Assembly (NCBI GenBank): GCA_028554795.2
Contig: CM068839.1
Span: forward strand, 90,740,182 to 90,804,181
DNA: 64,000 bases
Reading direction: 5' to 3'
Source: Sinohyriopsis cumingii
Lineage: Eukaryota > Mollusca > Bivalvia > Unionida > Unionidae
The notes under the pieces were generated by a model. It was not told the origin of the DNA. It ran no database searches and was given only the letters and a program-made list of their open reading frames with translations. The translations under genes were made by a program, and so were the position numbers. This document shows positions 8,515 through 29,116 of this stretch, in pieces (position 1 is the stretch's first letter; the number at the start of each line of letters is the position of its first letter).

Positions 8515-9234
8515 ATGGTTACCTCTGCTCCCTATTCCTCTACTGTCAAAGTCATCGACGAACACTTAGATCGTGCCAGTTGGGAGGCTTTGTATCTTCG
8601 CCATCCCTTTAACATGCTCATTGCTGGACCTAGCGGTTCAGTCAAAACCGAATTCGTCAAACGTTTGATCGAACATAAACATCATTTGATCGATCGGCCA
8701 CCTCAGCGGATCGTGTGGTGTTACAAAGAGTGGCAATCGGCGTACAGCCTCTTGCGCGAAAGTCAAGGCGATTCCATCGTGTTTGTGGAAGGCATTCCTA
8801 AAGAAGACGACGGCATCGTCTCTGACTCCTGTCAAATCCATTTGGTCATTTTCGACGACATGTTAGGAGAAGACGAAGAAGAAATTAAACTGTGGTTCAC
8901 GCGCAAAGGGCATCACCGTAATGCCAGTGTTGTTTACATCACCCAAAATTTGTTTCAACAAAGTAAAGCCCATCGCACCATCAGTCTTAATGCGCATTAC
9001 GTGGTCTTGTTTAAAAGCTCTCGAGATAAATCGCAAGTGCAAGTCTTAGCCAAACAATTAGGAACACCTTGGCTGACTCAGGCGTACGACGATGCCACTC
9101 AAACGCCACACGCCTATTTACTCGTCGATTTGAAACCTACGACCCCCGAGGATTTGCGATTTCGTACCCACTTGTTTCACCACTGGTGCCAAGACGGAGG
9201 GCCTGTCCTGTGCACGTCTCCGTCCTCGACTTAA
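8515..9234 (+). CDS. FtsK/HerA-type genome-packaging ATPase with altered Walker A
   Basis: A 239-residue frame, normal in length for the Polinton packaging ATPase, which would pump DNA into the capsid. The P-loop is GPSGSVKTEF (about residues 38-47), Walker B is LVIFDDM (about 106-112), and ITQNLF (about 142-147) fits the following sensor strand. The P-loop is abnormal: the Gly before Lys-Thr is Val (GTC, one base from GGC), which should impair nucleotide binding. The frame has no stop, so the gene looks intact but probably encodes an inactive enzyme. It has its own TATA box at 8461. Confidence 0.85.
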   Translation: MVTSAPYSSTVKVIDEHLDRASWEALYLRHPFNMLIAGPSGSVKTEFVKRLIEHKHHLIDRPPQRIVWCYKEWQSAYSLLRESQGDSIVFVEGIPKEDDGIVSDSCQIHLVIFDDMLGEDEEEIKLWFTRKGHHRNASVVYITQNLFQQSKAHRTISLNAHYVVLFKSSRDKSQVQVLAKQLGTPWLTQAYDDATQTPHAYLLVDLKPTTPEDLRFRTHLFHHWCQDGGPVLCTSPSST

Positions 9235-9254
9235 TTTCACTCCACAAAAAAATC

Positions 9255-9262
9255 TATAAAAA
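9255..9262 (+). promoter_or_regulatory. TATA box of the basic core-like gene
   Basis: TATAAAAA lies 39-46 bp before the ATG at 9301. Confidence 0.5.
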
Positions 9263-9300
9263 CCTCAGACCCTTTTTCGTCTGTCTCACACATTTTGAAC

Positions 9301-10252
9301 ATGACGTCCCTTCAGTCGCATCTTCCCGTCAAATTGATTCGTGCCTTGTATGGCATCAGTCGAGAAAAATCCACAAATACGAGCTCGTGTCTTAGAAGCT
9401 AGTCTCAAAGAAGTCTTACGATGGTTCACGGTGACGGCACGTCAATTACTGTAAGGAATCATTCAGATTCCTCATCAAACCAAACGCTTTTTCGATCGAA
9501 ACAAAGTCGCTTTGGTCCAACTGGCCGATCCCCGCATTGACACTCAAACCAAAAAACAAATCATTTTGAAACCTGGAGGGAGCGGTACTCTAGGAGGGGT
9601 CATCATTCGCTCTCTCTTAAGATGGGATCCTAATGCCCCCAAACTTCTCCCCAAGGAAAAAGTCCAACGAAGCTCCAAGAAGAAGAAAAAGACCAGGTCC
9701 CCAAGAAGGAGAACTTCTCCAGTGGCGGGACCCTCCTCTTACCAGACACCACCCCGGAAAAAGAAAAGAAGCCCCCAGAAAAAGAAACAGAGAAAAAGTC
9801 CCCAGAAAAGGAAAAGCCCACAGAAGAAAACTACTCGCAAGAGAGGCACTTCTTCGGCCAGGACGCAACCTTACACTCGCAAACCACGACCTGCCACGGC
9901 GGTGACTGCGTCTCCGGCAGCCTCAAGTTCATCCACTTCTCCGTTGATGACACCAAGAACTGAAGAGTACTTGGAGACGTTGATCACACCAAGAACATCT
10001 CCGTTGATGACCCCAAAAAGAACTTCCCCAGTGGCAGGACCTTCCAATTTAGTGGCAGTGGCTGCTGCTCACAAAGTACCTTCTCCCAAAATCAAAGTTC
10101 AAGAAAGATCGGGCATGTTACAAAGTTTACTGGATTTGTCCAAGGAAGAACTGGCTCGATTTAGTCCGTTGCGTACCCCTGCACGACGTGTCATGCCTGT
10201 CCTCAAATTGATACGACGTAAAGACAATCAGTGGCGACGCGTTCCAGTATAA
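9301..10252 (+). pseudogene. Lys/Arg/Ser/Pro-rich core-like protein, broken
   Basis: The ATG at 9301 fits the upstream TATA box, but the frame shifts near 9360 and meets a TAA at 9452-9454. The shifted frame then runs open to 10252. The N-terminal part is a compact folded-looking domain; a Gly-rich patch (LKPGGSGTLGG, about 9568-9600) follows, then about 130 residues dominated by SPQKK and RRRTSP-like repeats and two TSPLMTP repeats, and finally a conserved-looking C-terminus. Its charge and its place beside the ATPase suggest a DNA-condensing virion core protein, as adenoviruses have. I do not recognise the family with certainty. The stop codon at 10250-10252 lies within the next gene's TATA box. 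Confidence 0.55.
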
Positions 10253-10258
10253 AAAAGG
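10248..10258 (+). promoter_or_regulatory. TATA box overlapping the core-like gene's stop codon
   Basis: TATAAAAAAGG contains the TAA stop (10250-10252) of the upstream gene and lies 55-65 bp before the ATG at 10313. Confidence 0.55.
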
Positions 10259-10312
10259 CCTGTGACCAAGTCGGGGGTATCAGTGTTTTTTGGTGCTCCT
10301 GAAGACTCAAAG

Positions 10313-10529
10313 ATGTCACCCTCCAGAAAACCCCAAGGAAAGAAAAGGAAAGGATTACCACCACGTTTAGTCAAACATGGGGACATGTTATCTGTCCTGT
10401 CCAAAGCTTCTCCACCTCTACGAAAAAGACTCATTCCATCGGCCTCCAAAGAGGTTATCGATACCGTGTGCGAATGCTGTTTGAACGTCTTGAAAGGCAC
10501 GATCCCTTTGTCCAAACACCAGAAACAAT
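10313..10529 (+). pseudogene. 5' half of a small Polinton protein split by the nested element
   Basis: The ATG at 10313 opens a frame for a Lys-rich N-terminus and a helical segment, EVIDTVCECCLNVLKGTIPL, of a type that recurs in Polinton/adintovirus small proteins. The nested element enters after base 10529, so the frame now ends in the insert at a TAG (10529-10531). The 3' half resumes at 27132. The two halves add up to 387 bp, a whole number of codons (128 residues and a stop), and the phase is kept when the insert and one target copy are left out. The gene was therefore intact when it was hit. Confidence 0.75.
10524..10529. repeat. Target-site duplication, left copy (AACAAT)
   Basis: AACAAT directly precedes the AGTAGT terminus and is repeated at 27126-27131. 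Six base pairs is the standard Polinton duplication length. Confidence 0.9.
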
Positions 10530-10870
10530 AGTAGTATATGGGGTCACCCTAGCGTCAAGTGGACTTACCATGCAAAAACAGTCGATTCACTCTGGCGTCA
10601 AGGGGAATTTAACATGGGAAATTTTAACATGGATGGAACTGTAGAGCGTCAAGGGGAATTGAACATGGAAATTGAACAGGACCGGTACTTTAACGTCAAT
10701 GGGACTTTAACGTTAAAATATGGGGTTTGCACTTTGTCGTAAATGGAAATTGAACATGGGAATGTCACCTGGATGTCAATGGGAATTGAACTTTGGGTGA
10801 CGTCATGAGGTTTATAGGGTCAAAACATTTTATAGGGATTTTAATGTATTTGTAAGGACAAAGGGTAGAT
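10530..10870. repeat. Left terminus with iterated subterminal motif
   Basis: After the AGTAGT end, a degenerate motif close to GTCAANGGGAATTNAACATGG recurs about six times between 10580 and 10800. No gene is present. It is mirrored at 26785-27125. A related motif occurs in the right end of the outer Polinton, so it is probably a family-specific replication or integrase-binding region. Confidence 0.6.
10798..10805. promoter_or_regulatory. CRE palindrome in left terminus
   Basis: TGACGTCA, the same octamer as at 259-266, mirrored at 26850-26857. Confidence 0.45.
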
Positions 10871-11349
10871 AGGGACAAACATACAAATACACATTTAAAC
10901 ACACAGAAAAGACGACAGAAATGTTCTAAAACAAACCTCACAGAGAGAATAGAGGCTCGAAAAAGAAAAGTCTATTGTATGGATTCAAAACATTTATTCA
11001 AGTATATACATGGGCTCTCTGGCCTGTGCTTTGGTCTAAGCACTATCCATTTAATACATAAACATTTCTACATCAAACAAACCTATTTACTAGTTATTTA
11101 GTTCTTGGCTCTAGTAAACCTGTTTACATTTAATGTTCATTTATAAGAAAAAGCTAACACAAAACAAGTAACATGCAATCAAATAGGACAAAGTTCATGT
11201 TTCTCTCTCTCTATTCGTCTCACACGTTGTTAAAAATCTGGTCAGCTAGCACTTGTGTCCCAGCGTAGATATTTCCCATCACTTAATCCGTTTCATTCAT
11301 AAATCGGCTGTTATATCCATCGTGCTAGGTACACTTATCAGTAAGCAGA
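10871..11349 (-). other. 3' noncoding stretch with poly(A) signal, left arm
   Basis: No gene. AATAAA on the minus strand at 10993-10998 probably ends transcripts of the gene at 11350-11868. Confidence 0.5.
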
Positions 11350-11868
11350 TCAAGTGCAGTCATCGTCTTCTTCCCATGGAGGTACAATGTATACCATATG
11401 AATGGTTACTTTTCCTTCGTTGATGTCAAATTTTCCTCTCATCGACTGCACGTCTTCAATAGCCCTAAAAAGTTTGGACGAAGTTATTTCTGCAGGTGTG
11501 CTAAATCCGAGACATACAGGTGAGTTCAAACTGTCGCGATACATAGATAGGCTCAAACGACCTCGATCTTTGACTTGGCAATGACATTTGAGTTCCTCTA
11601 ACAGTGAGTCAAGTAGGTCCGTAATGAAACCTGCTACTTCCTCGGCTGAAATGTCAGACGCGAAGTCTCTAAATTTCACCGTGTAGGTATAAGTTGTCGT
11701 TCTAAATTTTCTTGAGGTCGCTGTCTGAGTCATTTGGATGCTAAAATACTCCTGTAGGTCTACTGAATCCTTTCCCTTCTTGGACGCACTTTGCTGCGAC
11801 GGTATGGTAGTGAAAGAGGTCAGTGATGTTTGTTCCTTCTCTTTTTTCATCTGCGTAGAGTGATTCAT
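11350..11868 (-). CDS. Stand-alone copy of the polymerase N-terminal domain, left arm
   Basis: Mirror of 25787-26305, with the same 172-residue protein. It aligns with about residues 50-190 of the element's PolB, sharing SRKFRTT, YTYTVKF, the SLLEELK/SLLTTLK helix and the FSTPAE/FSRPAE motif. It ends in an acidic tail, EEDDDCT. The frame is intact although the polymerase beside it is broken. See the right-arm copy. Confidence 0.7.
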   Translation of the reverse strand: MNHSTQMKKEKEQTSLTSFTTIPSQQSASKKGKDSVDLQEYFSIQMTQTATSRKFRTTTYTYTVKFRDFASDISAEEVAGFITDLLDSLLEELKCHCQVKDRGRLSLSMYRDSLNSPVCLGFSTPAEITSSKLFRAIEDVQSMRGKFDINEGKVTIHMVYIVPPWEEDDDCT

Positions 11869-12065
11869 CTTTCTCGTTGCTTGTCCTCGCAATGAAGTGT
11901 CGTTCTTGGAAGTCGTCCCTTTTTATACTGGGTGATATCAGTATGTCCATAAGGTAAAGTTTTGTGGTCTGGAAGTTTCACTAGCTGCACGTAGTTTGTC
12001 ATGGCGTTAGTACATAAATAACTAAGATGTGTTACTGCATTGGTGATGTGATAGTGAGGCAAAGA
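11869..12065 (-). pseudogene. Polymerase C-terminal fragment carrying a promoter, left arm
   Basis: Mirror of 25590-25786. It encodes a diverged copy of the PolB C-terminus (KLPDHKTLPYGH against RLPNHFTLPYGH) and holds the TATA box (minus strand, about 11918-11927) of the stand-alone domain gene. Confidence 0.6.
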
Positions 12066-12137
12066 ATCACACCCGAGTTTCTCGTTGGACTTGAGTCTTA
12101 CGCTCTATACTTGCTGTTTGAAGGGATTCATTTTTTC

Positions 12138-15100
12138 TCAATTGGTCTTAGTAGTGACAATGAACTGTTGGTCTTGGACGTTGTCCTTTTTTATATGCTG
12201 ACCAATATTGATGTGACCGTACGGCAAAGTAAAGTGGTTGGGAAGTCGCACTCGCTTCTGGTACACGATTTGATAGACTTTTTCCAAGGGTCGACTGACG
12301 ATGTGGTGAGTGGGTAAACGTACAATCTTGTTCGGCTGGTAGGTGGTCACTTTAAGGTTTGCATCCTCTCCAGACTGCAAGGCTTCTTTCAATACGCCAA
12401 AGTTGACCACACGACTGGTACGATAATTCAGAGTCAATCCTTTCACTTTACACTCTGTGTGCACTTCTCCTTGTGGGTCCCGGTATTCGTAGCCGTAATT
12501 TTTAGGACCGCCACTCGCGAAACTTAGAATCTTGTCGTCAGGATGTTCGTCTGTCCAGGCTCCTAAACGGTCTCCTTCGATGTTAGGGTGTTGCTGACCC
12601 GGTCGATCGATGTAGATGCAACTGTCCGTGTCAAAGTACAGGACGCGATCCCCTAACAGTTCTAAAGATTCGTACAATTTTAAGCGAGCATGAGCTGTCA
12701 CGTAAGCCGCAATGATGACATTTCCAAAAGGGTCGTCTTGTACAAAGTCCAGATCTTCTTCGTAATTGACCAAGATTAAATTCTCTCGAACGACGTCCAC
12801 GTGTTTCATGTATTTGGTTTTGTCGTGAATCATCTGGAAGTAGCGGGAAGGTTCTGTCAAATATTCCGTCTTGGGTAAACACGGTCGTTGTGCCATTTTA
12901 CCCCACAAGCAATTTAACATCACTTTGGCAAACGATCGCCTGCCTTCGTTTTTCTCGATGTGGTCTAAAGTGATGCCTTCTTGTTCCCGGTATTTCTCTT
13001 TGAATTTTATTTGGTCTTCGGGAGTGTGACACCAGGAAGGATAGCCGCTGGCTTCTTGCTTCAGTTTCAAAAAGGCATCCACGTAGTCTGCGAAAATGCC
13101 TTTCTGAGTAGGGTCACCCTTGTGGTATTGTTGTGTCTTGGGAAAGTGGCAAATTTCGTACACTTCTAACAGTTGGTATCCCATGTCCATAGCTTTGAAC
13201 AATTATACGCTGACCCAGGTTCCCGTCAAGGCCCGTTCTTCCTGGGTGTGCTGACAAGGCTGATCTTGGTTGCACGTTTCGGCACAAGTACGGCACAAGG
13301 GAAACATCAGTTTGCCTTGACAATGGTGAGGTAAGACGGGATGGTATAGGTTCGTGGGAGGCAAAACTTTGCACTTGATCAAGCCTTCGTATTGTCGAAT
13401 GTTGACCAGGTCGATGTGTTCCGTCAGCAATCACGGGTGCCCTGTAGGAAAGTGACAATATTTGCACACGTAGGGATACAGCGAACACACATCCAAGTAT
13501 TTGATTTCTTCTCCTTTCTCTTCGTCGGCTTGGTACAGCAAACAGGTGGCATTGGTCCTTCCTCCGTACAAACTATCCCTCGGGTTCAGGGGGTCCATCA
13601 GCTTGTAACTTTCCACGACACGTTTAAACTCGGGATCGATTTTCAAACGGTGATCGTATTCGTGTTCCCACATTTCCACCACTTGGTATCCTTGCTGTTC
13701 TAACTTCAAGCGTCGCTGACAAGTGTCCTGGTACAGGTCTTCCATGGTCCGTTGTAAAAACTGATTTTTAGTGTCACGGTCAGGGTAGCAGACGGGACAT
13801 CCGTGAAATAAGCAACCGTTAAACTCATACACGATCTTGGGGTTTTTTAAGTCCCAGCCATCGACCGAATACGTTCCGATGGTCCTTTCGCCTCCTCCGT
13901 TGCGGGCATGCTGAATCCATTTGCCTTCCTTGTCGCACAAGTAATGTAACCAGCGTAGGGCTTTGACCGAGTATTGACGCTTGACATAGTTGGTCGTTTG
14001 AGGACTGATGACAGCCACGGTCTTTTGAGGCATGAATCGTTGGCGGTACACTAAGGAACACGCTTTGGCAATGGTGCAAGCTTCTTTCAAAGGATCGACC
14101 CCTCCGTGTTCCATGAACAGTTCTCGAAATTTTCCACAGCAACGTCGTAAAATGTCCACGTCGGAACGACAATACTTTAACATTCCTTCCTGAAAGTCGA
14201 AGGGGTCAGAGGCATGAGCCTGGTACCAAGCGTAGAAATCTTCTCTTTGTTCGGTACGCATGTTGTCGGGGTCGTAATAGTGAGCCTCAGGCAAATGGGG
14301 TAGAACGGCATGTTGATTGGCTTCCGTATTGAAAAAGTGTGGAAAGTACCCTTTAGCCATTTCTGTCATTCCAAACGTTTTAGGCATTCGACTCAAAGGT
14401 ATGGCCAAGTAACTCATCGAATCTTTAAGCTGCACTTGTCCCACTCGCATGAAAATGATTTTGGCTCCGTTCAAAGTGACTTTAGGACGTTCGGTGCCAT
14501 GTTCCGTATAGTACCTCAAAAGAAACTGTCCATCGTATCCGGAGAAATTGTGAGCCATCACTGTGGCATGGCGATGACAATCTCGGTAACGTTCGATGTC
14601 CTCTTTGCTCCATGTCTTGTCGATGGGGTCTAAGACCCATTTGGCAAAATCTTCTAGCGTCTTTGGTCCTCGAAAGATTTTTCACGCCCTCCAGGAATTT
14701 TGCTGCAGTGAGGGCAACAACTGAAGATAGGTTCTTGAATACACTTCTCGCACGCTCGATGAGCCACGCAGAAATTAGGAATGTGAATGCCAGTCTCTTG
14801 CATGCATTCGAAATCGAAAAAGATGAAATTGCCTTTCTTCTTGTGACCGTCCTCTTTCTCTGGTGGGGGTTGGTATTTTTGCACGTAACATTCGTGTTCC
14901 AAGTCCACGATGTGGTGACAAATGTGACATTTTTTCTTTCTGAACATATGTGTGCCTTGACACTATTGGTACGTATGCCTTGTCCACACGCGGGGCACAA
15001 TCTCAGCAGTTGACAAGCGCATTTCTTCTGTGAACCTTGCGTCTTCAAGTGTTGTTGGTAACAGGTAGGGCTAACAAACGTGCGCAGACAAGTTGAACAA

Positions 15101-16233
15101 GGCACTGGTTCTTCGCTCAGACAGGGTTGAGAGGCCAAACATCCTGAGCATTTCCATCCACAATGTTTGTGTTGCTCTCGATTATTATAACCATAGTCAC
15201 ATTTCTCACAATAATAAACATATCCCAGGAATCCAGTGATACTGGTAATGGTATCGAAATGTTGATCGTGATGATAAAGGTGAATGTATTTTCCGTCCTT
15301 AAAATCTTGGCCTCGAAACAACAGAGGCCCGCACATTTCTTGAGGGTGCACTTTCAAGGTGTAGCGTGGAGCTAGGGCATCTTTCAATTTTTGCATCTCA
15401 GGAATGCCACAGGGTGTGTCTTTGGACAGTCCGGCTTGTTGTAACAGGAGTTCTACTTCATTTCGTTGTTTGGCTCGGTCGGATTGTTGAATAGTTTTCC
15501 AGGTTCTTTTCCATTCTACCGTGTCGTTCTTGTTGGCATAGGTTCGTCCCACCACGATGGCACGGGCTAAACACATCTGGTCATGAGGGTTGTTAATTCG
15601 GACGAGACTTGTTTTGGTGTTGCGAAGGTCGTCCACCAATAAGACCTTTTTGCGTCCTATTTCTTGAGGAAGAGAGACCTGAGCCATTTTCAGTGTGGTT
15701 TTACCATCGCTGATGTCAAACTTGTCATTGGATTGTTGCACCTGTTGTATCTTGTCCATGACTTTGGAAGGGGTCAGTTCTGCGGGTCTGCTAAACTCGA
15801 TCCAAACAGGGGATTTCAAGCTGTCGTGTTGTATGGATAGTGTCAAGCGATCGTCTTCTTTGGGTTGACATTGTCGCTTGAGTGTGGTGAGCAAAGAATC
15901 CCACATCTCGGTGATGAACTCTTCTGCTTTCTCCAACGGTACGTCGGACTTGAAACCTTTAAACTTCACCGTGTAGGTGTAAGCCGTGGTTCTAAATTTT
16001 CTAGAGGAGCGCTTTTCCGTCTCTCGAATGTGATAGTACTTTTCAGGGTTGACTGGTGAACTTTGGTTTGGAGTAGACTCTCTCTGTCTCGTCGCAGACG
16101 TGGAAGGTGTTGGTTCAGGTTCGCTCATGTCTTCTATTTGAGCGAACACTTCTTTTCGTGTGTGAGGCGATACGTCACTTCGCTGCCTCTTACGTTCTTC
16201 TTCTCTCTCACTGAAATCGTGCGATCGTTTCAT
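12138..16233 (-). pseudogene. polB: Family B DNA polymerase of the nested element, left arm, broken
   Basis: Mirror of the copy at 21422-25517, with the same zinc region, exonuclease motifs I-III and polymerase motifs A-C. It carries the same three lesions (two frameshifts in the zinc/exonuclease part and a TGA between motif A and the palm) plus a private one: a TAA at 13203-13205 where the right arm has GAA. The shared lesions predate formation of the palindrome, or were copied across by gene conversion; the private one came later. The ATG at 16231-16233 is preceded by a TATA box at about 16279-16285. Confidence 0.92.
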
Positions 16234-16546
16234 CTCGATTGCTGATTCAGAAATGATTTAACCAAGTTCATTCTTTCCATATATACCCTCTCTACCTCTC
16301 GTTGTGACAATGACTTGGTATATTTCACAAGGCAAGTAAAAGCCAAGCATATAGGAACCCAACGACAGCGTTGCGTCTTAAACACCTCATGCATCTTGAC
16401 GACCCTTCGATTCAAACCCTACCACGAAAGAAAATAGTTGCAAGAAAAATAAAACAGACAGTTGGTGTCTTCAAGAGAGCTAGAGACGGCACTGTGTCGC
16501 TGGGACACGTACGTACGTACTCCAGAAAACTACGCTACTCGACAAC
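16234..16546 (-). promoter_or_regulatory. Polymerase promoter region, left arm
   Basis: It holds a TATATAT box (about 16279-16285, minus strand) 46-52 bp before the polymerase ATG. The rest has no supported gene and includes a short (ACGT)n stretch near 16508. Confidence 0.5.
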
Positions 16547-17930
16547 GTGAGTGTGCTTGTCAAAATGTTTGAATAAGGTTAAAAATGTTTGTCAGTTTCA
16601 AAACGCGAACCAGTACTGTGTCCGTTTAATATTTGATGTGGCAAGAAGAAATGGTACAATACGCAACAAAGGGTTTGTACGTTTACACTCCAATCTGTCT
16701 GTACTGCAATGGTAACAGCGCTCTTGCGTTGGCATTATTTTGCCACACTAATTTTTAAATAAAACAATGCATCACTCATCATAAACGATTTCATTGGCTA
16801 TACTTATTTTCTTACCGCTTTCGCTTCGAATTGACTTCAATACCTTTTCGCACAGCGACAAGATCGGACGTGTTTTTTTATTCTGCGTCTGGTCGCTACA
16901 CTACTTGCCCTGAATTTACAACCAAACAATGTGTTACACATTGTAATTGACTTCATTGGCTAACCGATATTTTACACTTCTGTCTCTGTTGATGTGAGTG
17001 TGCTTGTCAAAATGTTTGAGTAAGATTAAAAATGTTTGTTAGTTTCAAAACGCGAACCAGTACTGTGGCCGTTTAATATTTGATGTGGCAAGAAGAAATG
17101 GTACAATACGCAACAAAGGGTTTGTATGTTTACACTCCAATCTGTCTGTACTGCAATGGTAACAGCGCTCTTGCGTTGGCATTATTTTGCCACACTACCT
17201 TAAAAAAAACCCCCAATGCATCACTCATCATAAACGATTTCATTGGCTAAACTTATTTTCTTACCGCTTTCGCTTCGAATTGACTTCAGTACCTTTTTGC
17301 ACAGCGACAAGATCGAACGTGTTTTTTTTAATTCTGCGGCTGGTCGCTACACTACTGTCAACAAGCCCTGAATTTACAACCAAACAATGTGTTACACATT
17401 GTAAGTGACTCCATTGGCTAACCGATATTTTACAATTCTGTCTCTATTGATGTGAGTGTGCTTGTCAAAATGTTTGAGTAAGATTAAAAATGTTTGTCAG
17501 TTTCAAAACGCGAACCAGTACTGTGGCAGTTTAATATTTGACGTGGCAAGAAGAAATGGTACAATACGCAACAAAGGGTTTGTACGTTTACACTCCAATC
17601 TGTCTGCACTGCAATGGTAATAGCACACTTGCGTTGGTATTATTTTGCCACACTACCTTTAATAAAACCCCAATGCATCACTCATCATAAACGATTTCAT
17701 TGGCTATACTTATTTTCTTACCGCTTTCGCTTCGAATTGACTTCAGTACCTTTTCGCACAGCGACAAGATCGGACGTGTTTTTTTTATTCTGCGTCTGGT
17801 CGCTACTCTACTTGCCCTGAATTTACAACCAAACAATGTGTTACACATTGTAAGTGACTTCATTGGTCAGTCGATATTTTCCATCGCCTTAGCTTCAAAT
17901 TGGTTTCACTTGTTATTCGCACCGTGAGAT
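16547..17930. repeat. Three tandem units of about 450 bp, left arm
   Basis: Units start at 16547, 16994 and 17452 with GTGAGTGTGCTTGTC, giving periods of 447 and 458 bp, followed by a partial fourth. Within each unit a CATTGGCT-led subunit with a Ser/Tyr-free, stop-rich sequence is itself partly duplicated. The units have no convincing coding content; short open frames in them are by-products of repetition. The array is mirrored at about 19725-21108. Homopolymer lengths differ between arms. Confidence 0.8.
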
Positions 17931-18814
17931 GATCAGACACGTTTTTCTGTACCTGACCATTAGTCACTTCACAAACAATAAAACTAAAACACAAATGATC
18001 ACGCCATGAGCGGCTCATGGAAATTATGTTAGTCATGTTACGAAATATAGCACGACTTGTTTGGATGTACTTTTCTGTGGTCACTCTTTAATTACATGCG
18101 TCTTCAGTTCACTCTTGTGATATTTTTTGTAAAGGGTGTATTTTTTCTATGGATGTGATTGTGTTATGTTCTATATGTTCTTTTATGTTTTCAGTGATTT
18201 TACTTTATATCTATATTTTAATTTAGATGTATAGACTATGTAGTCTGAAATAAAGAATTCTTATCTTATGTAAATGGAATGAGTGTTTCTTTGAAACTTT
18301 CATAAGGAAAATGTGCCATAAAAACAAACGTACGTGTCGTCATATTTTTAAAGTAGGAATACATGATCTCTCTCTCTCTCTCTCTCTCTCTCATTGTAGT
18401 TTTGATTTATACCCTAATGGAATATGTTCCCGTTTGAAGATACCTCTCCAAAATTGTGATCAGTAGTCACCATAATTACGTGAACTGTTCGTCATGTCAT
18501 TTTTTTCAAAAGTTTACACTCTAAAAAATTGTAGAACGATTTTTTTTCTTCCATCAGTAAATCTTTGTATGAAATAAAAGCTTGAGTTTGCACAATTCTG
18601 GTATCTTAACTTTATTCGGTTTTGAACTGCAATATGTCACGCAATTTTTTTCTTTTAACGTTAGATTTACAGTTTTTCAGAAAAAAAGACAATCACACGG
18701 CTTTTTTAAGAATGAAACAAATGACATTGCACTGTATAACCCTGCCTATGGTTAACTCTGAATTCTAAAGTCAAAACATGGGTTCAGGAAAAAATGTAAC
18801 AATGTTCGTCCTAT
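17931..18814. other. Inner noncoding segment of left arm
   Basis: No gene. It contains AATAAAGAATTCTTATCTTAT (near 18248), which resembles the 3' end of a non-LTR retrotransposon or SINE, and a (CT)n tract at about 18367-18392. The origin of this DNA, element or captured host, is unclear. Confidence 0.5.
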
Positions 18815-18836
18815 ATTCTCTCAGTTTACACTGAGG
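18815..18836. other. Axis of the 16.6-kb palindrome
   Basis: A 22-bp unpaired centre contains a small stem, CTCAG-TTTACA-CTGAG, itself a hairpin. On either side the arms match, so the full single strand could fold into one hairpin. Confidence 0.85.
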
Positions 18837-19724
18837 ATAGGACGAACATTGTTACATTTTTTCCTGAACCCATGTTTTGACTTTAGAATTCAGAGTTAAC
18901 CATAGGCAGGATTATACAGTGCAATGTCATTTGTTTCATTCTTAAAAAAGCCGTGTGATTGTCTTTTTTTCTGAAAAACTGTAAATCTAACGTTAAAAGA
19001 AAAAAATTGCGTGACATATTGCAGTTCCAAAACCGAATAAAGTTAAGATACCAGAATTGTGCAAACTCAAGCTTTTATTTCATACAAAGATTTACTGATG
19101 GAAGAAAAAAATCGTTCTACAATTTTTTAGAGTGTAAACTTTTGAAAAAAATGACATGACGAACAGTTCACGTAATTATGGTGACTACTGATCACAATTT
19201 TGGAGAGGTATCTTCAAACGGGAACATATTCCATTAGGGTATAAATCAAAACTACAATGAGAGAGAGAGAGAGAGAGAGATCATGTATTCCTACTTTAAA
19301 AATATGACGACACGTACGTTTGTTTTTATGGCACATTTTCCTCATGAAAGTTTCAAAGAAACACTCATTCCATTTACATAAGATAAGATAAGAATTCTTT
19401 ATTTCAGACTACATAGTCTATACATCTAAATTAAAATATAGATATAAAGTAAAATCACTGAAAACATAAAAGAACATATAGAACATAACACAATCACATC
19501 CATAGAAAAAATACACCCTTTACAAAAAATATCACAAGAGTGAACTGAAGACGCATGTAATTAAAGAGTGACCACAGAAAAGTACATCCAAACAAGTCGT
19601 GCTATATTTCGTAACATGACTAACATAATTTCCATGAGCCGCTCATGGCGTGATCATTTGTGTTTTAGTTTTATTGTTTGTGAAGTGACTAATGGTCAGG
19701 TACAGAAAAACGTGTCTGATCATC
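18837..19724. other. Inner noncoding segment of right arm
   Basis: Mirror of 17931-18814. No gene. (AG)n at about 19259-19280. Confidence 0.5.
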
Positions 19725-21108
19725 TCACGGTGCGAATAACAAGTGAAACCAATTTGAAGCTAAGGCGGTGGAAAATATCGACTGACCAATGAAGTCACTT
19801 ACAATGTGTAACACATTGTTTGGTTGTAAATTCAGGGCAAGTAGAGTAGCGACCAGACGCAGAATAAAAAAACACGTCCGATCTTGTCGCTGTGCGAAAA
19901 GGCACTGAAGTCAATTCGAAGCGAAAGCGGTAAGAAAATAAGTATAGCCAATGAAATCGTTTATGATGAGTGATGCATTGGGGTTTTATTAAAGGTAGTG
20001 TGGCAAAATAATACCAACGCAAGTGTGCTATTACCATTGCAGTGCAGACAGATTGGAGTGTAAACGTACAAACCCTTTGTTGCGTATTGTACCATTTCTT
20101 CTTGCCACGTCAAATATTAAACGGCCACAGTACTGGTTCGCGTTTTGAAACTGACAAACATTTTTAATCTTACTCAAACATTTTGACAAGCACACTCACA
20201 TCAATAGAGACAGAATTGTAAAATATCGGTTAGCCAATGGAGTCACTTACAATGTGTAACACACATTGTTTGGTTGTAAATTCAGGGCTTGTTGACAGTA
20301 GTGTAGCGACCAGCCGCAGAATAAAAAAAAAAACACGTCCGATCTTGTCGCTGTGCAAAAAGGTACTGAAGTCAATTCGAAGCGAAAGCGGTAAGAAAAT
20401 AAGTTTAGCCAATGAAATCGTTTATGATGAGTGATGCATTGGGGGTTTTTTTTAAGGTAGTGTGGCAAAATAATGCCAACGCAAGAGCGCTGTTACCATT
20501 GCAGTACAGACAGATTGGAGTGTAAACATACAAACCCTTTGTTGCGTATTGTACCATTTCTTCTTGCCACATCAAATATTAAACGGCCACAGTACTGGTT
20601 CGCGTTTTGAAACTAACAAACATTTTTAATCTTACTCAAACATTTTGACAAGCACACTCACATCAACAGAGACAGAAGTGTAAAATATCGGTTAGCCAAT
20701 GAAGTCAATTACAATGTGTAACACATTGTTTGGTTGTAAATTCAGGGCAAGTAGTGTAGCGACCAGACGCAGAATAAAAAAACACGTCCGATCTTGTCGC
20801 TGTGCGAAAAGGTATTGAAGTCAATTCGAAGCGAAAGCGGTAAGAAAATAAGTATAGCCAATGAAATCGTTTATGATGAGTGATGCATTGTTTTATTTAA
20901 AAATTAGTGTGGCAAAATAATGCCAACGCAAGAGCGCTGTTACCATTGCAGTACAGACAGATTGGAGTGTAAACGTACAAACCCTTTGTTGCGTATTGTA
21001 CCATTTCTTCTTGCCACATCAAATATTAAACGGACACAGTACTGGTTCGCGTTTTGAAACTGACAAACATTTTTAACCTTATTCAAACATTTTGACAAGC
21101 ACACTCAC
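19725..21108. repeat. Three tandem units of about 450 bp, right arm
   Basis: Mirror image of the array at 16547-17930, with a few indels and substitutions. Confidence 0.8.
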
Positions 21109-21369
21109 GTTGTCGAGTAGCGTAGTTTTCTGGAGTACGTACGTACGTGTCCCAGCGACACAGTGCCGTCTCTAGCTCTCTTGAAGACACCAACTGTCTG
21201 TTTTATTTTTCTTGCAACTATTTTCTTTCGTGGTAGGGTTTGAATCGAAGGGTCGTCAAGATGCATGAGGTGTTTAAGACGCAACGCTGTCGTTGGGTTC
21301 CTATATGCTTGGCTTTTACTTGCCTTGTGAAATATACCAAGTCATTGTCACAACGAGAGGTAGAGAGGG

Positions 21370-21376
21370 TATATAT
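21370..21376 (+). promoter_or_regulatory. TATA box of the nested polymerase, right arm
   Basis: TATATAT lies 46-52 bp before the ATG at 21422. Confidence 0.55.
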
Positions 21377-21421
21377 GGAAAGAATGAACTTGGTTAAATC
21401 ATTTCTGAATCAGCAATCGAG

Positions 21422-24400
21422 ATGAAACGATCGCACGATTTCAGTGAGAGAGAAGAAGAACGTAAGAGGCAGCGAAGTGACGTATCGCCTCACACACGAA
21501 AAGAAGTGTTCGCTCAAATAGAAGACATGAGCGAACCTGAACCAACACCTTCCACGTCTGCGACGAGACAGAGAGAGTCTACTCCAAACCAAAGTTCACC
21601 AGTCAACCCTGAAAAGTACTATCACATTCGAGAGACGGAAAAGCGCTCCTCTAGAAAATTTAGAACCACGGCTTACACCTACACGGTGAAGTTTAAAGGT
21701 TTCAAGTCCGACGTACCGTTGGAGAAAGCAGAAGAGTTCATCACCGAGATGTGGGATTCTTTGCTCACCACACTCAAGCGACAATGTCAACCCAAAGAAG
21801 ACGATCGCTTGACACTATCCATACAACACGACAGCTTGAAATCCCCTGTTTGGATCGAGTTTAGCAGACCCGCAGAACTGACCCCTTCCAAAGTCATGGA
21901 CAAGATACAACAGGTGCAACAATCCAATGACAAGTTTGACATCAGCGATGGTAAAACCACACTGAAAATGGCTCAGGTCTCTCTTCCTCAAGAAATAGGA
22001 CGCAAAAAGGTCTTATTGGTGGACGACCTTCGCAACACCAAAACAAGTCTCGTCCGAATTAACAACCCTCATGACCAGATGTGTTTAGCCCGTGCCATCG
22101 TGGTGGGACGAACCTATGCCAACAAGAACGACACGGTAGAATGGAAAAGAACCTGGAAAACTATTCAACAATCCGACCGAGCCAAACAACGAAATGAAGT
22201 AGAACTCCTGTTACAACAAGCCGGACTGTCCAAAGACACACCCTGTGGCATTCCTGAGATGCAAAAATTGAAAGATGCCCTAGCTCCACGCTACACCTTG
22301 AAAGTGCACCCTCAAGAAATGTGCGGGCCTCTGTTGTTTCGAGGCCAAGATTTTAAGGACGGAAAATACATTCACCTTTATCATCACGATCAACATTTCG
22401 ATACCATTACCAGTATCACTGGATTCCTGGGATATGTTTATTATTGTGAGAAATGTGACTATGGTTATAATAATCGAGAGCAACACAAACATTGTGGATG
22501 GAAATGCTCAGGATGTTTGGCCTCTCAACCCTGTCTGAGCGAAGAACCAGTGCCTTGTTCAACTTGTCTGCGCACGTTTGTTAGCCCTACCTGTTACCAA
22601 CAACACTTGAAGACGCAAGGTTCACAGAAGAAATGCGCTTGTCAACTGCTGAGATTGTGCCCCGCGTGTGGACAAGGCATACGTACCAATAGTGTCAAGG
22701 CACACATATGTTCAGAAAGAAAAAATGTCACATTTGTCACCACATCGTGGACTTGGAACACGAATGTTACGTGCAAAAATACCAACCCCCACCAGAGAAA
22801 GAGGACGGTCACAAGAAGAAAGGCAATTTCATCTTTTTCGATTTCGAATGCATGCAAGAGACTGGCATTCACATTCCTAATTTCTGCGTGGCTCATCGAG
22901 CGTGCGAGAAGTGTATTCAAGAACCTATCTTCAGTTGTTGCCCTCACTGCAGCAAAATTCCTGGAGGGCGTGAAAAATCTTTCGAGGACCAAAGACGCTA
23001 GAAGATTTTGCCAAATGGGTCTTAGACCCCATCGACAAGACATGGAGCAAAGAGGACATCGAACGTTACCGAGATTGTCATCGCCATGCCACAGTGATGG
23101 CTCACAATTTCTCCGGATACGATGGACAGTTTCTTTTGAGGTACTATACGGAACATGGCACCGAACGTCCTAAAGTCACTTTGAACGGAGCCAAAATCAT
23201 TTTCATGCGAGTGGGACAAGTGCAGCTTAAAGATTCGATGAGTTACTTGGCCATACCTTTGAGTCGAATGCCTAAAACGTTTGGAATGACAGAAATGGCT
23301 AAAGGGTACTTTCCACACTTTTTCAATACGGAAGCCAATCAACATGCCGTTCTACCCCATTTGCCTGAGGCTCACTATTACGACCCCGACAACATGCGTA
23401 CCGAACAAAGAGAAGATTTCTACGCTTGGTACCAGGCTCATGCCTCTGACCCCTTCGACTTTCAGGAAGGAATGTTAAAGTATTGTCGTTCCGACGTGGA
23501 CATTTTACGACGTTGCTGTGGAAAATTTCGAGAACTGTTCATGGAACACGGAGGGGTCGATCCTTTGAAAGAAGCTTGCACCATTGCCAAAGCGTGTTCC
23601 TTAGTGTACCGCCAACGATTCATGCCTCAAAAGACCGTGGCTGTCATCAGTCCTCAAACGACCAACTATGTCAAGCGTCAATACTCGGTCAAAGCCCTAC
23701 GCTGGTTACATTACTTGTGCGACAAGGAAGGCAAATGGATTCAGCATGCCCGCAACGGAGGAGGCGAAAGGACCATCGGAACGTATTCGGTCGATGGCTG
23801 GGACTTAAAAAACCCCAAGATCGTGTATGAGTTTAACGGTTGCTTATTTCACGGATGTCCCGTCTGCTACCCTGACCGTGACACTAAAAATCAGTTTTTA
23901 CAACGGACCATGGAAGACCTGTACCAGGACACTTGTCAGCGACGCTTGAAGTTAGAACAGCAAGGATACCAAGTGGTGGAAATGTGGGAACACGAATACG
24001 ATCACCGTTTGAAAATCGATCCCGAGTTTAAACGTGTCGTGGAAAGTTACAAGCTGATGGACCCCCTGAACCCGAGGGATAGTTTGTACGGAGGAAGGAC
24101 CAATGCCACCTGTTTGCTGTACCAAGCCGACGAAGAGAAAGGAGAAGAAATCAAATACTTGGATGTGTGTTCGCTGTATCCCTACGTGTGCAAATATTGT
24201 CACTTTCCTACAGGGCACCCGTGATTGCTGACGGAACACATCGACCTGGTCAACATTCGACAATACGAAGGCTTGATCAAGTGCAAAGTTTTGCCTCCCA
24301 CGAACCTATACCATCCCGTCTTACCTCACCATTGTCAAGGCAAACTGATGTTTCCCTTGTGCCGTACTTGTGCCGAAACGTGCAACCAAGATCAGCCTTG

Positions 24401-25517
24401 TCAGCACACCCAGGAAGAACGGGCCTTGACGGGAACCTGGGTCAGCGTAGAATTGTTCAAAGCTATGGACATGGGATACCAACTGTTAGAAGTGTACGAA
24501 ATTTGCCACTTTCCCAAGACACAACAATACCACAAGGGTGACCCTACTCAGAAAGGCATTTTCGCAGACTACGTGGATGCCTTTTTGAAACTGAAGCAAG
24601 AAGCCAGCGGCTATCCTTCCTGGTGTCACACTCCCGAAGACCAAATAAAATTCAAAGAGAAATACCGGGAACAAGAAGGCATCACTTTAGACCACATCGA
24701 GAAAAACGAAGGCAGGCGATCGTTTGCCAAAGTGATGTTAAATTGCTTGTGGGGTAAAATGGCACAACGACCGTGTTTACCCAAGACGGAATATTTGACA
24801 GAACCTTCCCGCTACTTCCAGATGATTCACGACAAAACCAAATACATGAAACACGTGGACGTCGTTCGAGAGAATTTAATCTTGGTCAATTACGAAGAAG
24901 ATCTGGACTTTGTACAAGACGACCCTTTTGGAAATGTCATCATTGCGGCTTACGTGACAGCTCATGCTCGCTTAAAATTGTACGAATCTTTAGAACTGTT
25001 AGGGGATCGCGTCCTGTACTTTGACACGGACAGTTGCATCTACATCGATCGACCGGGTCAGCAACACCCTAACATCGAAGGAGACCGTTTAGGAGCCTGG
25101 ACAGACGAACATCCTGACGACAAGATTCTAAGTTTCGCGAGTGGCGGTCCTAAAAATTACGGCTACGAATACCGGGACCCACAAGGAGAAGTGCACACAG
25201 AGTGTAAAGTGAAAGGATTGACTCTGAATTATCGTACCAGTCGTGTGGTCAACTTTGGCGTATTGAAAGAAGCCTTGCAGTCTGGAGAGGATGCAAACCT
25301 TAAAGTGACCACCTACCAGCCGAACAAGATTGTACGTTTACCCACTCACCACATCGTCAGTCGACCCTTGGAAAAAGTCTATCAAATCGTGTACCAGAAG
25401 CGAGTGCGACTTCCCAACCACTTTACTTTGCCGTACGGTCACATCAATATTGGTCAGCATATAAAAAAGGACAACGTCCAAGACCAACAGTTCATTGTCA
25501 CTACTAAGACCAATTGA
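21422..25517 (+). pseudogene. polB: Family B DNA polymerase of the nested element, right arm, broken
   Basis: This protein-primed replicative polymerase is close in sequence to the outer copy. The N-terminal domain (about residues 1-200) and a Cys/His-rich zinc region are in the first frame. An A-run frameshift near 22715-22725 leads to the Exo I frame (DFE at 22840-22848). A second shift at an A5 run near 22975 leads to Exo II (about 23103-23123), Exo III (YCRSDVD, from 23481) and motif A (DVCSLYP, about 24162-24184). A TGA at 24222-24224 interrupts the frame before motif B (KVMLNCLWG, about 24729-24755) and motif C (YFDTDS, 25017-25034). All catalytic residues remain. The outer copy has A6 at the second site, so the shift there is a one-base loss. 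The 3' end contains a TATAAAAAAGG sequence. Confidence 0.93.
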
Positions 25518-25523
25518 GAAAAA

Positions 25524-25550
25524 ATGAATCCCTTCAAACAGCAAGTATAG
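25524..25550 (+). pseudogene. Possible remnant start of a deleted gene after polB
   Basis: A nine-codon frame beginning MNPFKQ sits exactly where the outer element has the BIR gene start (MNTFRE), with a similar leader. It suggests that the nested element once had a gene here and lost it. Very short, so weak. The left-arm mirror lies at 12105-12131. Confidence 0.3.
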
Positions 25551-25589
25551 AGCGTAAGACTCAAGTCCAACGAGAAACTCGGGTGTGAT

Positions 25590-25786
25590 TCTTTGCCTCA
25601 CTATCACATCACCAATGCAGTAACACATCTTAGTTATTTATGTACTAACGCCATGACAAACTACGTGCAGCTAGTGAAACTTCCAGACCACAAAACTTTA
25701 CCTTATGGACATACTGATATCACCCAGTATAAAAAGGGACGACTTCCAAGAACGACACTTCATTGCGAGGACAAGCAACGAGAAAG
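25590..25786 (+). pseudogene. Polymerase C-terminal fragment carrying a promoter, right arm
   Basis: The translation shows LPHYHIT and KLPDHKTLPYGH, paralogous to LPTHHIV and RLPNHFTLPYGH at the PolB C-terminus. It holds TATAAAAAGG at 25728-25737, 50-59 bp before the next ATG. A piece of polymerase coding DNA was thus duplicated and now serves as the promoter of the following gene. Confidence 0.65.
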
Positions 25787-26305
25787 ATGAATCACTCTAC
25801 GCAGATGAAAAAAGAGAAGGAACAAACATCACTGACCTCTTTCACTACCATACCGTCGCAGCAAAGTGCGTCCAAGAAGGGAAAGGATTCAGTAGACCTA
25901 CAGGAGTATTTTAGCATCCAAATGACTCAGACAGCGACCTCAAGAAAATTTAGAACGACAACTTATACCTACACGGTGAAATTTAGAGACTTCGCGTCTG
26001 ACATTTCAGCCGAGGAAGTAGCAGGTTTCATTACGGACCTACTTGACTCACTGTTAGAGGAACTCAAATGTCATTGCCAAGTCAAAGATCGAGGTCGTTT
26101 GAGCCTATCTATGTATCGCGACAGTTTGAACTCACCTGTATGTCTCGGATTTAGCACACCTGCAGAAATAACTTCGTCCAAACTTTTTAGGGCTATTGAA
26201 GACGTGCAGTCGATGAGAGGAAAATTTGACATCAACGAAGGAAAAGTAACCATTCATATGGTATACATTGTACCTCCATGGGAAGAAGACGATGACTGCA
26301 CTTGA
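25787..26305 (+). CDS. Stand-alone copy of the polymerase N-terminal domain, right arm
   Basis: A 172-residue intact frame; the ATG at 25787 fits the TATA box at 25728. Residues about 45-155 align with the PolB N-terminal domain (SRKFRTT, YTYTVKF, CQVKDRGRLSLSMYRDSLNSP against CQPKEDDRLTLSIQ), and the acidic end EEDDDCT is its own. It lacks exonuclease and polymerase motifs. The N-terminal region of protein-primed polymerases is where a terminal-protein or regulatory function could lie, so a separate terminal-protein-like role is conceivable but unproven. Alternatively it is the surviving start of a deleted second polymerase. Integrity of the frame in both arms argues for some retention. Confidence 0.7.
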   Translation: MNHSTQMKKEKEQTSLTSFTTIPSQQSASKKGKDSVDLQEYFSIQMTQTATSRKFRTTTYTYTVKFRDFASDISAEEVAGFITDLLDSLLEELKCHCQVKDRGRLSLSMYRDSLNSPVCLGFSTPAEITSSKLFRAIEDVQSMRGKFDINEGKVTIHMVYIVPPWEEDDDCT

Positions 26306-26784
26306 TCTGCTTACTGATAAGTGTACCTAGCACGATGGATATAACAGCCGATTTATGAATGAAACGGATTAAGTGATGGGAAATATCTACGCTGGGACAC
26401 AAGTGCTAGCTGACCAGATTTTTAACAACGTGTGAGACGAATAGAGAGAGAGAAACATGAACTTTGTCCTATTTGATTGCATGTTACTTGTTTTGTGTTA
26501 GCTTTTTCTTATAAATGAACATTAAATGTAAACAGGTTTACTAGAGCCAAGAACTAAATAACTAGTAAATAGGTTTGTTTGATGTAGAAATGTTTATGTA
26601 TTAAATGGATAGTGCTTAGACCAAAGCACAGGCCAGAGAGCCCATGTATATACTTGAATAAATGTTTTGAATCCATACAATAGACTTTTCTTTTTCGAGC
26701 CTCTATTCTCTCTGTGAGGTTTGTTTTAGAACATTTCTGTCGTCTTTTCTGTGTGTTTAAATGTGTATTTGTATGTTTGTCCCT
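26306..26784 (+). other. 3' noncoding stretch with poly(A) signal, right arm
   Basis: No gene. AATAAA at 26657-26662. Confidence 0.5.
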
Positions 26785-27125
26785 ATCTACCCTTTGTCCT
26801 TACAAATACATTAAAATCCCTATAAAATGTTTTGACCCTATAAACCTCATGACGTCACCCAAAGTTCAATTCCCATTGACATCCAGGTGACATTCCCATG
26901 TTCAATTTCCATTTACGACAAAGTGCAAACCCCATATTTTAACGTTAAAGTCCCATTGACGTTAAAGTACCGGTCCTGTTCAATTTCCATGTTCAATTCC
27001 CCTTGACGCTCTACAGTTCCATCCATGTTAAAATTTCCCATGTTAAATTCCCCTTGACGCCAGAGTGAATCGACTGTTTTTGCATGGTAAGTCCACTTGA
27101 CGCTAGGGTGACCCCATATACTACT
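26785..27125. repeat. Right terminus with iterated subterminal motif
   Basis: Mirror of 10530-10870. It ends in CCCATATACTACT before the target duplication. Confidence 0.6.
26850..26857. promoter_or_regulatory. CRE palindrome in right terminus
   Basis: TGACGTCA, mirror of 10798-10805. Confidence 0.45.
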
Positions 27126-27131
27126 AACAAT
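27126..27131. repeat. Target-site duplication, right copy (AACAAT)
   Basis: Identical to 10524-10529. Confidence 0.9.
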
Positions 27132-27301
27132 GCTTAAGCAAACATCGTCACGTTATTCGCCAAATGGTTCGAGAGAAAATTCCGATTTGTCAAAAAAAGA
27201 AGATGTTGGTCCAACGTGGAGGCATTTTACCCCTCTTGTTAGGTCCCATACTGAAAGGAGTCTTGGGAACCATGTTGGGAGGACTGGTGGGAGCAAGATA
27301 A
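27132..27301 (+). pseudogene. 3' half of the split small Polinton protein
   Basis: Continuing the phase of the 5' half, this part reads a basic stretch, then LVQRGGILPLLLGPIL and a Gly/Leu-rich hydrophobic tail ending in LGGLVGAR. The basic region followed by a Gly-rich amphipathic or membrane-active helix is typical of small Polinton/adintovirus virion proteins often compared with adenovirus pVI or pX. The stop TAA (27299-27301) lies in the next promoter. A different frame (27130-27369) is open here but is only a shadow. Confidence 0.65.
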
Positions 27302-27306
27302 AAAGG
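27297..27306 (+). promoter_or_regulatory. TATA-like box overlapping a stop codon
   Basis: GATAAAAAGG contains the TAA stop of the small protein and lies 45-54 bp before the ATG at 27351. Confidence 0.45.
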
Positions 27307-27350
27307 CCCTCGGAAGTCCCAAGATCTCAGAATCGACCCCTGACAACCCC

Positions 27351-27986
27351 ATGGAAGGACGAAAACTAGCTTTAGTGCCTTACAAACGATGGATGGAATA
27401 CCATCGGTGGCAAGAACAACGCACCCCGCATTTGCCTCCCAATCCCAATTTGAGCGAGATGTCCCAGTTACAACATGAATTGCAGTCCTTGATGGATCGC
27501 CAAGATTTGTCCGAAACAGAAAAATCGCAAAAGTACGGTCAACTCTTGCAACGACTGCAACTCTTTCACCAGAAAGCTTTAGACGAAACAGCTCTACCCA
27601 CTCTGAAAGATTTTAAGACCTTGATGAAAAGTCCAGCACCATCACCAGTACCAGTACCAGTACCAGTACCAGTGACCAAGACAGAAAAAGGAGAAGAAGA
27701 AGAAGAAGGGTTTCAAACTCCACCAGAGAAAGTACGCAAGTTAACAACACCACCTACCTCCAGAATTGGATGGATTAAAAAGATGATGGTCACCCCTTCT
27801 TCATCACAAGAGAAAAAGAAAGTGAAGACAGAAGTGAAGACAGAAGTGAAACAAGAACCGATATCCCCCGCTCAGACATCCTCCTCTTCGACACCTATTG
27901 CCGGTCGCACACGCAAAGCATTGCAATCCAAGAAAGTACCCCAAGAGAAAAAGAGTAGCATCCTCCAAGAGTGGGTGTCTTATTAA
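27351..27986 (+). CDS. Pre-integrase Polinton protein with Pro-Val repeat
   Basis: A 211-residue intact frame. It starts MEGRKLALVPYKRW, followed by a helical region (about residues 40-85) rich in Gln/Leu, of the kind found in the hypothetical protein next to the integrase in many Polintons. A PVPVPVPV run from a (CCAGTA)n repeat (about 27642-27673) follows, then Glu-rich and Lys/Ser/Thr-rich disordered sequence with KTEVKTEVK repeats. It is probably a virion or core-associated protein, but the function is unknown. It ends 21 bp before the integrase start. Confidence 0.6.
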   Translation: MEGRKLALVPYKRWMEYHRWQEQRTPHLPPNPNLSEMSQLQHELQSLMDRQDLSETEKSQKYGQLLQRLQLFHQKALDETALPTLKDFKTLMKSPAPSPVPVPVPVPVTKTEKGEEEEEGFQTPPEKVRKLTTPPTSRIGWIKKMMVTPSSSQEKKKVKTEVKTEVKQEPISPAQTSSSSTPIAGRTRKALQSKKVPQEKKSSILQEWVSY

Positions 27987-28007
27987 CACACCAACCAACA
28001 GAAAAAA

Positions 28008-29116
28008 ATGGGAAAAGTCTTAGCCAGCATTTACTACGATCCCTCCCATCCTGCAGGTTACGCAGGAGTTCAAAAATTGTATCTTGCTGCCAAAACTCGA
28101 CTGAAAAGTCTCCGTTTACCTCAAGTGTAACGATGGTTACAAGAACAAGCTACCTACACTTTACACAAACCCATTCGACGCAAGTTTGCCAGAAGTCGCA
28201 CCCGAGTGGAAGGCATCGATCATCAATGGCAAGCCGATTTAGCCGATGTCTCTCATTTGGCCAGCTACAATCGTGGCTACAAATATTTGTTTTGTGTCAT
28301 CGACGTCTTTTCCAAATTTGCCTGGGTCGTGCCCTTGACTTCCAAATCGAGCAGCGAGTTAGTGCGAGCCCTGCAACGGGTGTTGAAACAAAGCGGTCGT
28401 CACCCTCTTCGATGGCAAACGGACAAAGGCACCGAATTTCTAAACCAAGCTTTCCAAAAAGAATTAAAGAAACGTGACATTCATTTTTTTACCACCGAGA
28501 ATCCCGAAACCAAAGCCAGCATCGTGGGACGTTTTCAACGCACTTTGAAAGAACGCATGTGGAAATATTTTACGCATCACCACACTCTGAAGTACATCGA
28601 CATCTTACCGCACCTGGTGCAAGCGTACAACCAATCTTACCATCGAAGCATCGGACGTGCCCCGCAAGAAGTGACTCCCGACAACGAAGTGTTGGTGTTT
28701 GAGCGTCTGTTTGGTACGTCCCCGACGAGGGCTGTCCCCAAGAAAAGTGGAGAGTTGGCCGTAGGATATTGGGTGCGCATTGGCAAAACCAAACGCACTT
28801 TCGACAAAGGTTACTTACCTAACTGGACGACCGAATTGTTTCGCGTCACTGGACGAGTGCATGGCCGTCATCCTGCCGTCTATAAATTGGAAGACATGAA
28901 CGGAGAAGTGCTCAAAGGAACGTTTTATTTGCCCGAGTTACAACGTGTCACCAAAAAAGAAGACGACGTGTACGACATCGAAAGCATTCTCGAACGCAGA
29001 ACCCGTAAAGTGGGCAAACGACGTGTCAAACAAGTGAAAGTACGTTGGAAAGGATATCCACTCAGTTTTGATTCTGGATCGACGCTTCGCAAGTCATCGA
29101 CTATAAAAAGAAGTGA
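28008..29116 (+). pseudogene. Polinton DDE integrase with chromodomain, inactivated
   Basis: A retroviral-type integrase that would join element ends to host DNA with a 6-bp stagger. The ATG at 28008 starts a frame interrupted by TAA at 28128-28130 and open again to 29168. The RNase H-fold core has the two Asp (WQADLAD near 28229 and WQTDKGTEF near 28413), but the site of the catalytic Glu reads SIVGRFQRTLK instead of the usual IVERF, one base from Glu. A chromodomain follows (VYDIESIL... VRWKGYP, about 28968-29065), which in other integrases reads histone marks. A one-base loss near 29075 throws the last residues out of frame. Three separate lesions make this a dead gene. There is no obvious TATA box upstream. 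Confidence 0.92.
29102..29110 (+). promoter_or_regulatory. TATA box within the integrase 3' end
   Basis: TATAAAAAG overlaps the last codons of the integrase in its shifted frame. The next ATG (29122) is only 12-20 bp away, so transcription may start very close to it or the spacing has been shortened. Confidence 0.45.

Follow-up and report, generated by a model that had tools for sequence, protein, structure and literature searches.

The window analyzed here is a 64,000-nucleotide stretch of the genome of the freshwater mussel Sinohyriopsis cumingii (C16:90740182-90804181 in the 2.90-Gb assembly), and it contains a palindromic Polinton-like transposable element of 16.6 kb. Positions 10530-27125 consist of two inverted arms of about 8.3 kb each (10530-18825 and 18830-27125), which are 99.71% identical over 8296 aligned columns, with 8 mismatches and 16 gap positions. 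The inverted match is close to 100% over 6801 nt (10529-17329 against 20326-27126) and continues in pieces up to the center. There, a hairpin with a 6-bp stem and a 4-nt loop, CTCAGT-TTAC-ACTGAG (18820-18835), is flanked by a 5-nt/1-nt asymmetry. The first-pass annotation had described two inverted 8.3-kb arms around a 22-bp axis; the arms and the central position of the axis agree with our alignment, but the hairpin is smaller than annotated. The element starts with AGTAGT at 10530, ends with ACTACT at 27125, and is bordered by the 6-bp direct repeat AACAAT (10524-10529 and 27126-27131, forward strand), as the same annotation had reported. The window contains two occurrences of a 19-nt terminal motif, whereas shuffled sequences contain 0.01 on average. 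The inner 2.6 kb or so of each arm is devoid of open reading frames (ORFs) of at least 100 codons and harbors an array of three repeats of about 458 bp (16547-17880, mirrored at 19768-21108); no ORF of at least 120 codons lies between 16257 and 21398. Fourteen of the 15 events distinguishing the two arms fall within the inner 1.5 kb, partly in tandem or simple repeats. A similar excess is seen in another copy of the element (C11) and is absent from others (C7 and C1).

Each arm carries only the polymerase side of a Polinton, as had been proposed. The PolB gene lies on the forward strand in the right arm (21398-25517) and on the reverse strand in the left arm (12138-16257). Two right-arm pieces of this gene match the protein-primed DNA polymerase family PF03175 (9.8e-23 and 1.6e-12). 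Both arms share two frame breaks and one in-frame stop codon, and the left arm has one extra stop; the reading frame is intact over its full length in some other copies. A search with one PolB piece gave 521 homologs. Among the best 120 of these, the named ones come from bivalves, spiders, and other invertebrates, and the closest one is metagenomic (89%). No relative was found in viral contigs searched with a PolB piece, an alignment, and the terminal motif. The second gene is an ORF of 190 codons from stop to stop (25733-26305, forward strand; 11350-11922, reverse strand in the left arm), with homologs limited to three proteins, of which the named one is from another unionid, Potamilus streckersoni (70%). 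A metagenomic relative, P0124, has an additional N-terminal part that resembles by eye the end of PolB, hinting that the 190-codon ORF may derive from a tandem PolB arrangement. Pfam searches revealed no retroviral-type DDE integrase in the five right-arm ORFs scanned, nor any packaging ATPase, adenovirus-like protease, or capsid protein. This gene content is not peculiar to the window: in six copies, the outer 6.3 kb of both arms was scanned on the strand coding for PolB, and the only ORFs of at least 120 codons there are PolB, frames overlapping it, and the 190-codon ORF.

The palindrome belongs to a multicopy family. In the genome sequence searches, the best 40 candidates were scored. The terminal 1 kb gave at least 40 matches at 99-100% identity (best 40 of 3392 first-look candidates), two of which are those of the window itself. 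The others include 11 inverted pairs, 10.7-33 kb apart. We examined both halves of ten pairs (10.7-18.7 kb) and pieces of the eleventh, and all ten fetched copies are made of inverted arms, so that the search for other such palindromes suggested in the first-pass annotation was successful. Seven of the ten, five of them full length and two with lost parts, share the axis of the window copy including its 5/1-nt asymmetry, in one orientation or the other. A query spanning the axis gave 80 matches at 40 scored sites (best 40 of 1439 candidates), with matches in both orientations overlapping at every one of them. The 32-nt core of the axis has 108 genome matches with up to three mismatches, against none for a reversed control; this number is not a copy number, as some sites (L129-L137) contain two to four cores about 40-160 bp apart. 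Among 31 copies for which both ends were found, 27 are flanked by a perfect 6-bp duplication, three by a duplication with one mismatch, and one by none. The 30 duplications are all distinct.

The single axis in all copies that retain it indicates one founder and, together with the distinct 6-bp duplications of 30 of the 31 copies, shows that the founder palindrome moved repeatedly as a unit. The proposed integration of a palindromic molecule as a unit is thus corroborated; the idea of a single chromosomal fossil of a defective-interfering Polinton is not, since we are dealing with a family and not with one event. Formation of the window palindrome in place, by break-induced copying between the terminal inverted repeats (TIRs) of an ordinary Polinton after its insertion, would explain why the PolB lesions of the window are common to both arms. 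However, an identical axis at all 40 scored sites is not expected of separate local events; it leads us to reject a single post-insertion duplication and makes formation in place extremely improbable. The same copies bear on a possible assembly artefact. Palindromes are difficult to assemble, and they might arise from a missed adapter, or their arms might appear alike because they were collapsed or polished. A missed adapter would have mirrored the flanks too, yet these are unique, unmirrored, and joined to a common 6-bp duplication in 30 copies; because the structure also recurs at many uniquely flanked sites, we rejected this source. As the arms moreover retain differences of their own (0-0.29%), we regard an artefact of either kind as quite improbable.

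How the founder arose is suggested by its axis. The fold-back of a growing strand would leave behind just such a short hairpin with a tiny loop. In the scenario that we propose, a strand produced by protein-primed replication would have folded back at the small hairpin and served as its own template up to the terminus. The resulting molecule would have had two identical ends, each with a TIR and PolB. Such an origin is plausible although unproven, and the repeated axis cores at several sites fit template switching at the axis. Alternatively, the TIR of a Polinton might have grown inward by end-to-end conversion, the unique middle being deleted later. The end product would look alike, and several copies do show central deletions or rearrangements. 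Nevertheless, the perfect hairpin with its 4-nt loop is what the fold-back predicts, and no case of an arm entering a unique middle was met among the axis sites scored (best 40 of 1439 candidates). TIR expansion is in our view unlikely. Of 20 further axis sites, eight lack a second arm adjoining the axis and were considered as candidate parents, but no parent was recognized among them: six continue with sequence from elsewhere in the element, corresponding to deletions, and two with sequence that has no useful matches among the compared loci.

The palindrome is inserted within a second, decayed Polinton, overlooked in the first-pass annotation, which starts to the left of the window and ends at 30163. 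Its left part (1-10523, forward strand) contains PolB remnants within 1796-5876, an ORF with an inhibitor-of-apoptosis (BIR) domain (5843-6526), and a Pox_A32-type ATPase gene (8455-9234; Pfam, 3.1e-6). Its right part (27132-30163, forward strand) contains an ORF encoding an integrase core (rve) and a chromodomain (28131-29168) and ends with ...CCCCATTCACTACT. The PolB genes of this outer Polinton and of the palindrome are 91% identical in an alignment of 3965 columns, and a further 79-nt piece matches at the gene start. Clear likeness between the two elements is confined to these genes and to a stretch of the 190-codon ORF resembling the N-terminal region of the outer PolB (68%; in the right arm, 67.8% DNA identity over 245 nt). 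A better preserved outer-type Polinton is found at C4:6426097-6459180, in the right arm of a centrally deleted copy of the palindrome. It is 20.2 kb long, with both ends present (AGTAGTGAATGGGG), its own duplication GATATC, and TIRs that are 99.5% alike over 182 bp and accompanied by further subterminal repeats. The part of this element that was fetched encodes an open PolB frame of 1350 codons, BIR proteins, an integrase core (rve, 1.8e-14), and a chromodomain (8.7e-8); a Peptidase_C5 match is weak (0.03) and below the cut-off.

Each of the two types has thus been found inserted in the other, and they have the terminal motif AGTAGTNNATGGGG in common. The ends of the palindrome read AGTAGTATATGGGG and those of the outer type AGTAGTGAATGGGG, and short subterminal motifs are also common to both. 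As the genome contains a Polinton that encodes an integrase, retains both ends, and has this terminal motif, and as the integrase recognizes ends, the palindromic molecule would be integrable by the integrase of the other type. The supply of integrase in trans, already put forward in the first-pass annotation, is therefore likely, with the outer-type Polinton as the likely helper.

Two further features of the outer type deserve mention. Stem-loops of the histone 3' untranslated region (RF00032, 35.6-41.2 bits) occur once in the window (922-967), and the scanned pieces of the C4 copy contain three more (L063:471-515, L066:1355-1400, and L068:2171-2216), two of them near the element ends in opposite orientations. 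The three that were checked lie about 20 nt downstream of the end of an ORF, which suggests that this Polinton may use histone-type mRNA 3' ends. An open-licence full-text literature search returned nothing on a Polinton with a histone stem-loop. In addition to the BIR domain encoded in the window (5843-6526), two BIR ORFs are carried by the C4 copy (L063:5391-5861 and 5819-6658).

The two arms of a given copy are more similar to each other than to those of other copies. Over the outer 5.9 kb of 11 copies (shorter for two rearranged ones), arms differ by 0-0.29% within a copy (mean 0.11%) and by 0.03-1.15% between copies (mean 0.83%). In the tree of these copies, arms of the same copy are sisters in ten of 11 cases, with support of 0.994-1.000 for nine and 0.905 for one; the exception and the copy with 0.905 support are two nearly identical copies. 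Over 7.4 kb, arms are sisters in all six copies compared, with a support of 1.000. These six copies have 50 arm-specific substitutions, 49 of which arose in a single arm. The resemblance of partner arms is less close at the extreme ends. In 13 copies selected through their axis, the terminal 195 bp diverge by 0.40% within and by 0.99% between copies. In one copy, each arm has at its position 6208 a 2.4-kb transposon with CACTGG/CCAGTG ends (L023:6912-8733 and L024:1000-3399); the shorter of the two retains 1796 bp, over which they are 99.94% identical.

This likeness could have been established at each transposition or maintained after insertion. In the former case, a displaced or incomplete strand would cross the axis, snap back, and copy one arm to the end, so that both arms of a new copy would descend from a single arm and be comparable to long terminal repeats. 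Through the axis hairpin, the palindrome would rebuild itself at every protein-primed cycle, each new copy starting with identical arms. It would then be a satellite that bears PolB, corrects its own sequence, and depends on the integrase of Polintons. The sister arms, the 49 substitutions new in one arm, the transposon present in both arms, and the rows of two to four axis cores, which suggest repeated template switching, are all in line with this model. The PolB genes tell otherwise. Changes private to one copy and present in both arms amount to 93 nonsynonymous (N), 36 synonymous (S), and two stops, that is 1.00 of the neutral ratio (11 copies); those private to one arm are likewise neutral (35 N, 14 S, and two stops). 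In these counts, single changes were dropped where the other arm had no letter. Stops or frame-changing indels are found in both arms of six of the 11 copies. Conversely, the ratio of nonsynonymous to synonymous divergence (dN/dS) between palindrome-type and outer-type PolB is 0.20, so PolB was earlier under selection, and the neutral copy-private changes would mostly represent decay after insertion that spread to both arms. Target duplications, too, are more diverged than the arms: three mismatches are observed in 180 positions, whereas 0.2 is expected if arm divergence (mean about 0.11%) reflects age (P = 0.001). With the terminal divergence, the expectation rises to 0.7 (P = 0.036); with that of private branches or between copies, it rises to 1.4-1.8 (P = 0.18-0.26). 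The weaker likeness at the extreme ends is a further point against equalization at transposition. Copying at replication with a dispensable PolB is possible, and we hold the self-rebuilding palindrome to be the less likely option. Because of the neutral both-arm changes and the more diverged duplications, we favor, without proof, arm-to-arm gene conversion in the chromosome.

Taken together, these data make it probable that the window palindrome is a copy of a non-autonomous Polinton family, whose 16.6-kb palindromic unit carries PolB twice. Its founder would have formed by fold-back, the ends would have been recognized and the molecule integrated by the integrase of the other Polinton type, and after insertion PolB would undergo neutral decay, the two arms of a copy would be kept similar by gene conversion between them, and the palindrome center would be subject to deletions. 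Several observations weigh against parts of this interpretation. An end was not found at its expected place in 4/9, 5/7, and 17/30 copies of three sets, one end being found in five of the 17; these copies may be truncations or rearrangements, or they may extend past the short stretches retrieved, and in one further copy, beside the set of nine, the contig ends before the element does. A 16.6-kb copy with both ends, C18:75382000-75399200 (L046 and L047), has no matching target duplication and is perhaps a recombinant. In the terminal 195 bp of the 13 axis-chosen copies, only 17 of 26 arms have their partner as the closest or equally close arm. The first 11 copies were picked because their terminal 1 kb was similar, which biases divergence downward in that part. 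With 20 N, 10 S, and one stop, the PolB changes found in at least two copies have a ratio of 0.80 that does not differ discernibly from neutrality, and their small number leaves selection on PolB in the palindromic lineage neither demonstrated nor excluded. The duplication argument depends on three mismatches, and arm collapse or polishing during assembly could mimic conversion. Finally, no non-palindromic parent with the TIR of the palindrome was found in this genome, where the first-pass annotation had proposed to look for a full-length one; the best 40 candidates were scored, so a parent may have been missed.

Protein-primed replication yields one-ended palindromic products that are usually deemed by-products; the present family suggests that such a product can give rise to a transposon family that thrives in an animal genome. 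Since an element apparently without its own integrase has spread to many genomic sites, such molecules can multiply and are not one-off wreckage. Its dozens of dispersed palindromes with separate insertion dates provide a natural replicate experiment on arm conversion and palindrome instability outside sex chromosomes, and the satellite/helper relation of two Polinton types in one genome is testable. No such palindromic Polinton family appears in the titles or abstract openings of the open-licence papers listed in searches on Polintons with palindromes, non-autonomous elements, or long terminal inverted repeats.

Polintons, or Mavericks, have AG ends and generate 6-bp target duplications. The palindrome resembles them by its protein-primed-type family B polymerase (PF03175), its TIRs, and its 6-bp duplication (30 of 31 copies with both ends), and it resides with an outer type that has an integrase, an ATPase-like gene, and PolB. 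It differs from the Polinton gene features given in PMC6431247 by the lack, in its scanned ORFs, of any match to a DDE integrase, packaging ATPase, adenovirus-like protease, or capsid protein, by being an inverted repeat throughout, and by carrying PolB twice. As in a non-autonomous derivative, its cis-acting ends are common to an integrase-bearing element of the same genome.

Palindromic defective genomes are known in adenoviruses and in protein-primed linear plasmids. Like these, the mussel element is a one-ended palindrome with two copies of the TIR and adjoining genes and a plausible fold-back origin. In contrast, the mussel palindromes are chromosomal, numerous, and flanked by target duplications, and they offer no evidence of interference. 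Foldback transposons, of which Tetris is reportedly one with long TIRs, also consist mostly of long inverted repeats, built largely of short tandem units. The arms of the mussel palindrome are mostly coding, for PolB, with the 16547-17880 array and its mirror at 19768-21108 as their sole long array, and they combine Polinton termini, a 6-bp duplication, and a 4-nt axis loop. Palindromes of sex chromosomes undergo arm-to-arm gene conversion, and there too arms are far more similar than separate lineages would be. The mussel copies differ from them in being mobile, dispersed over many contigs, and made of 8.3-kb arms.

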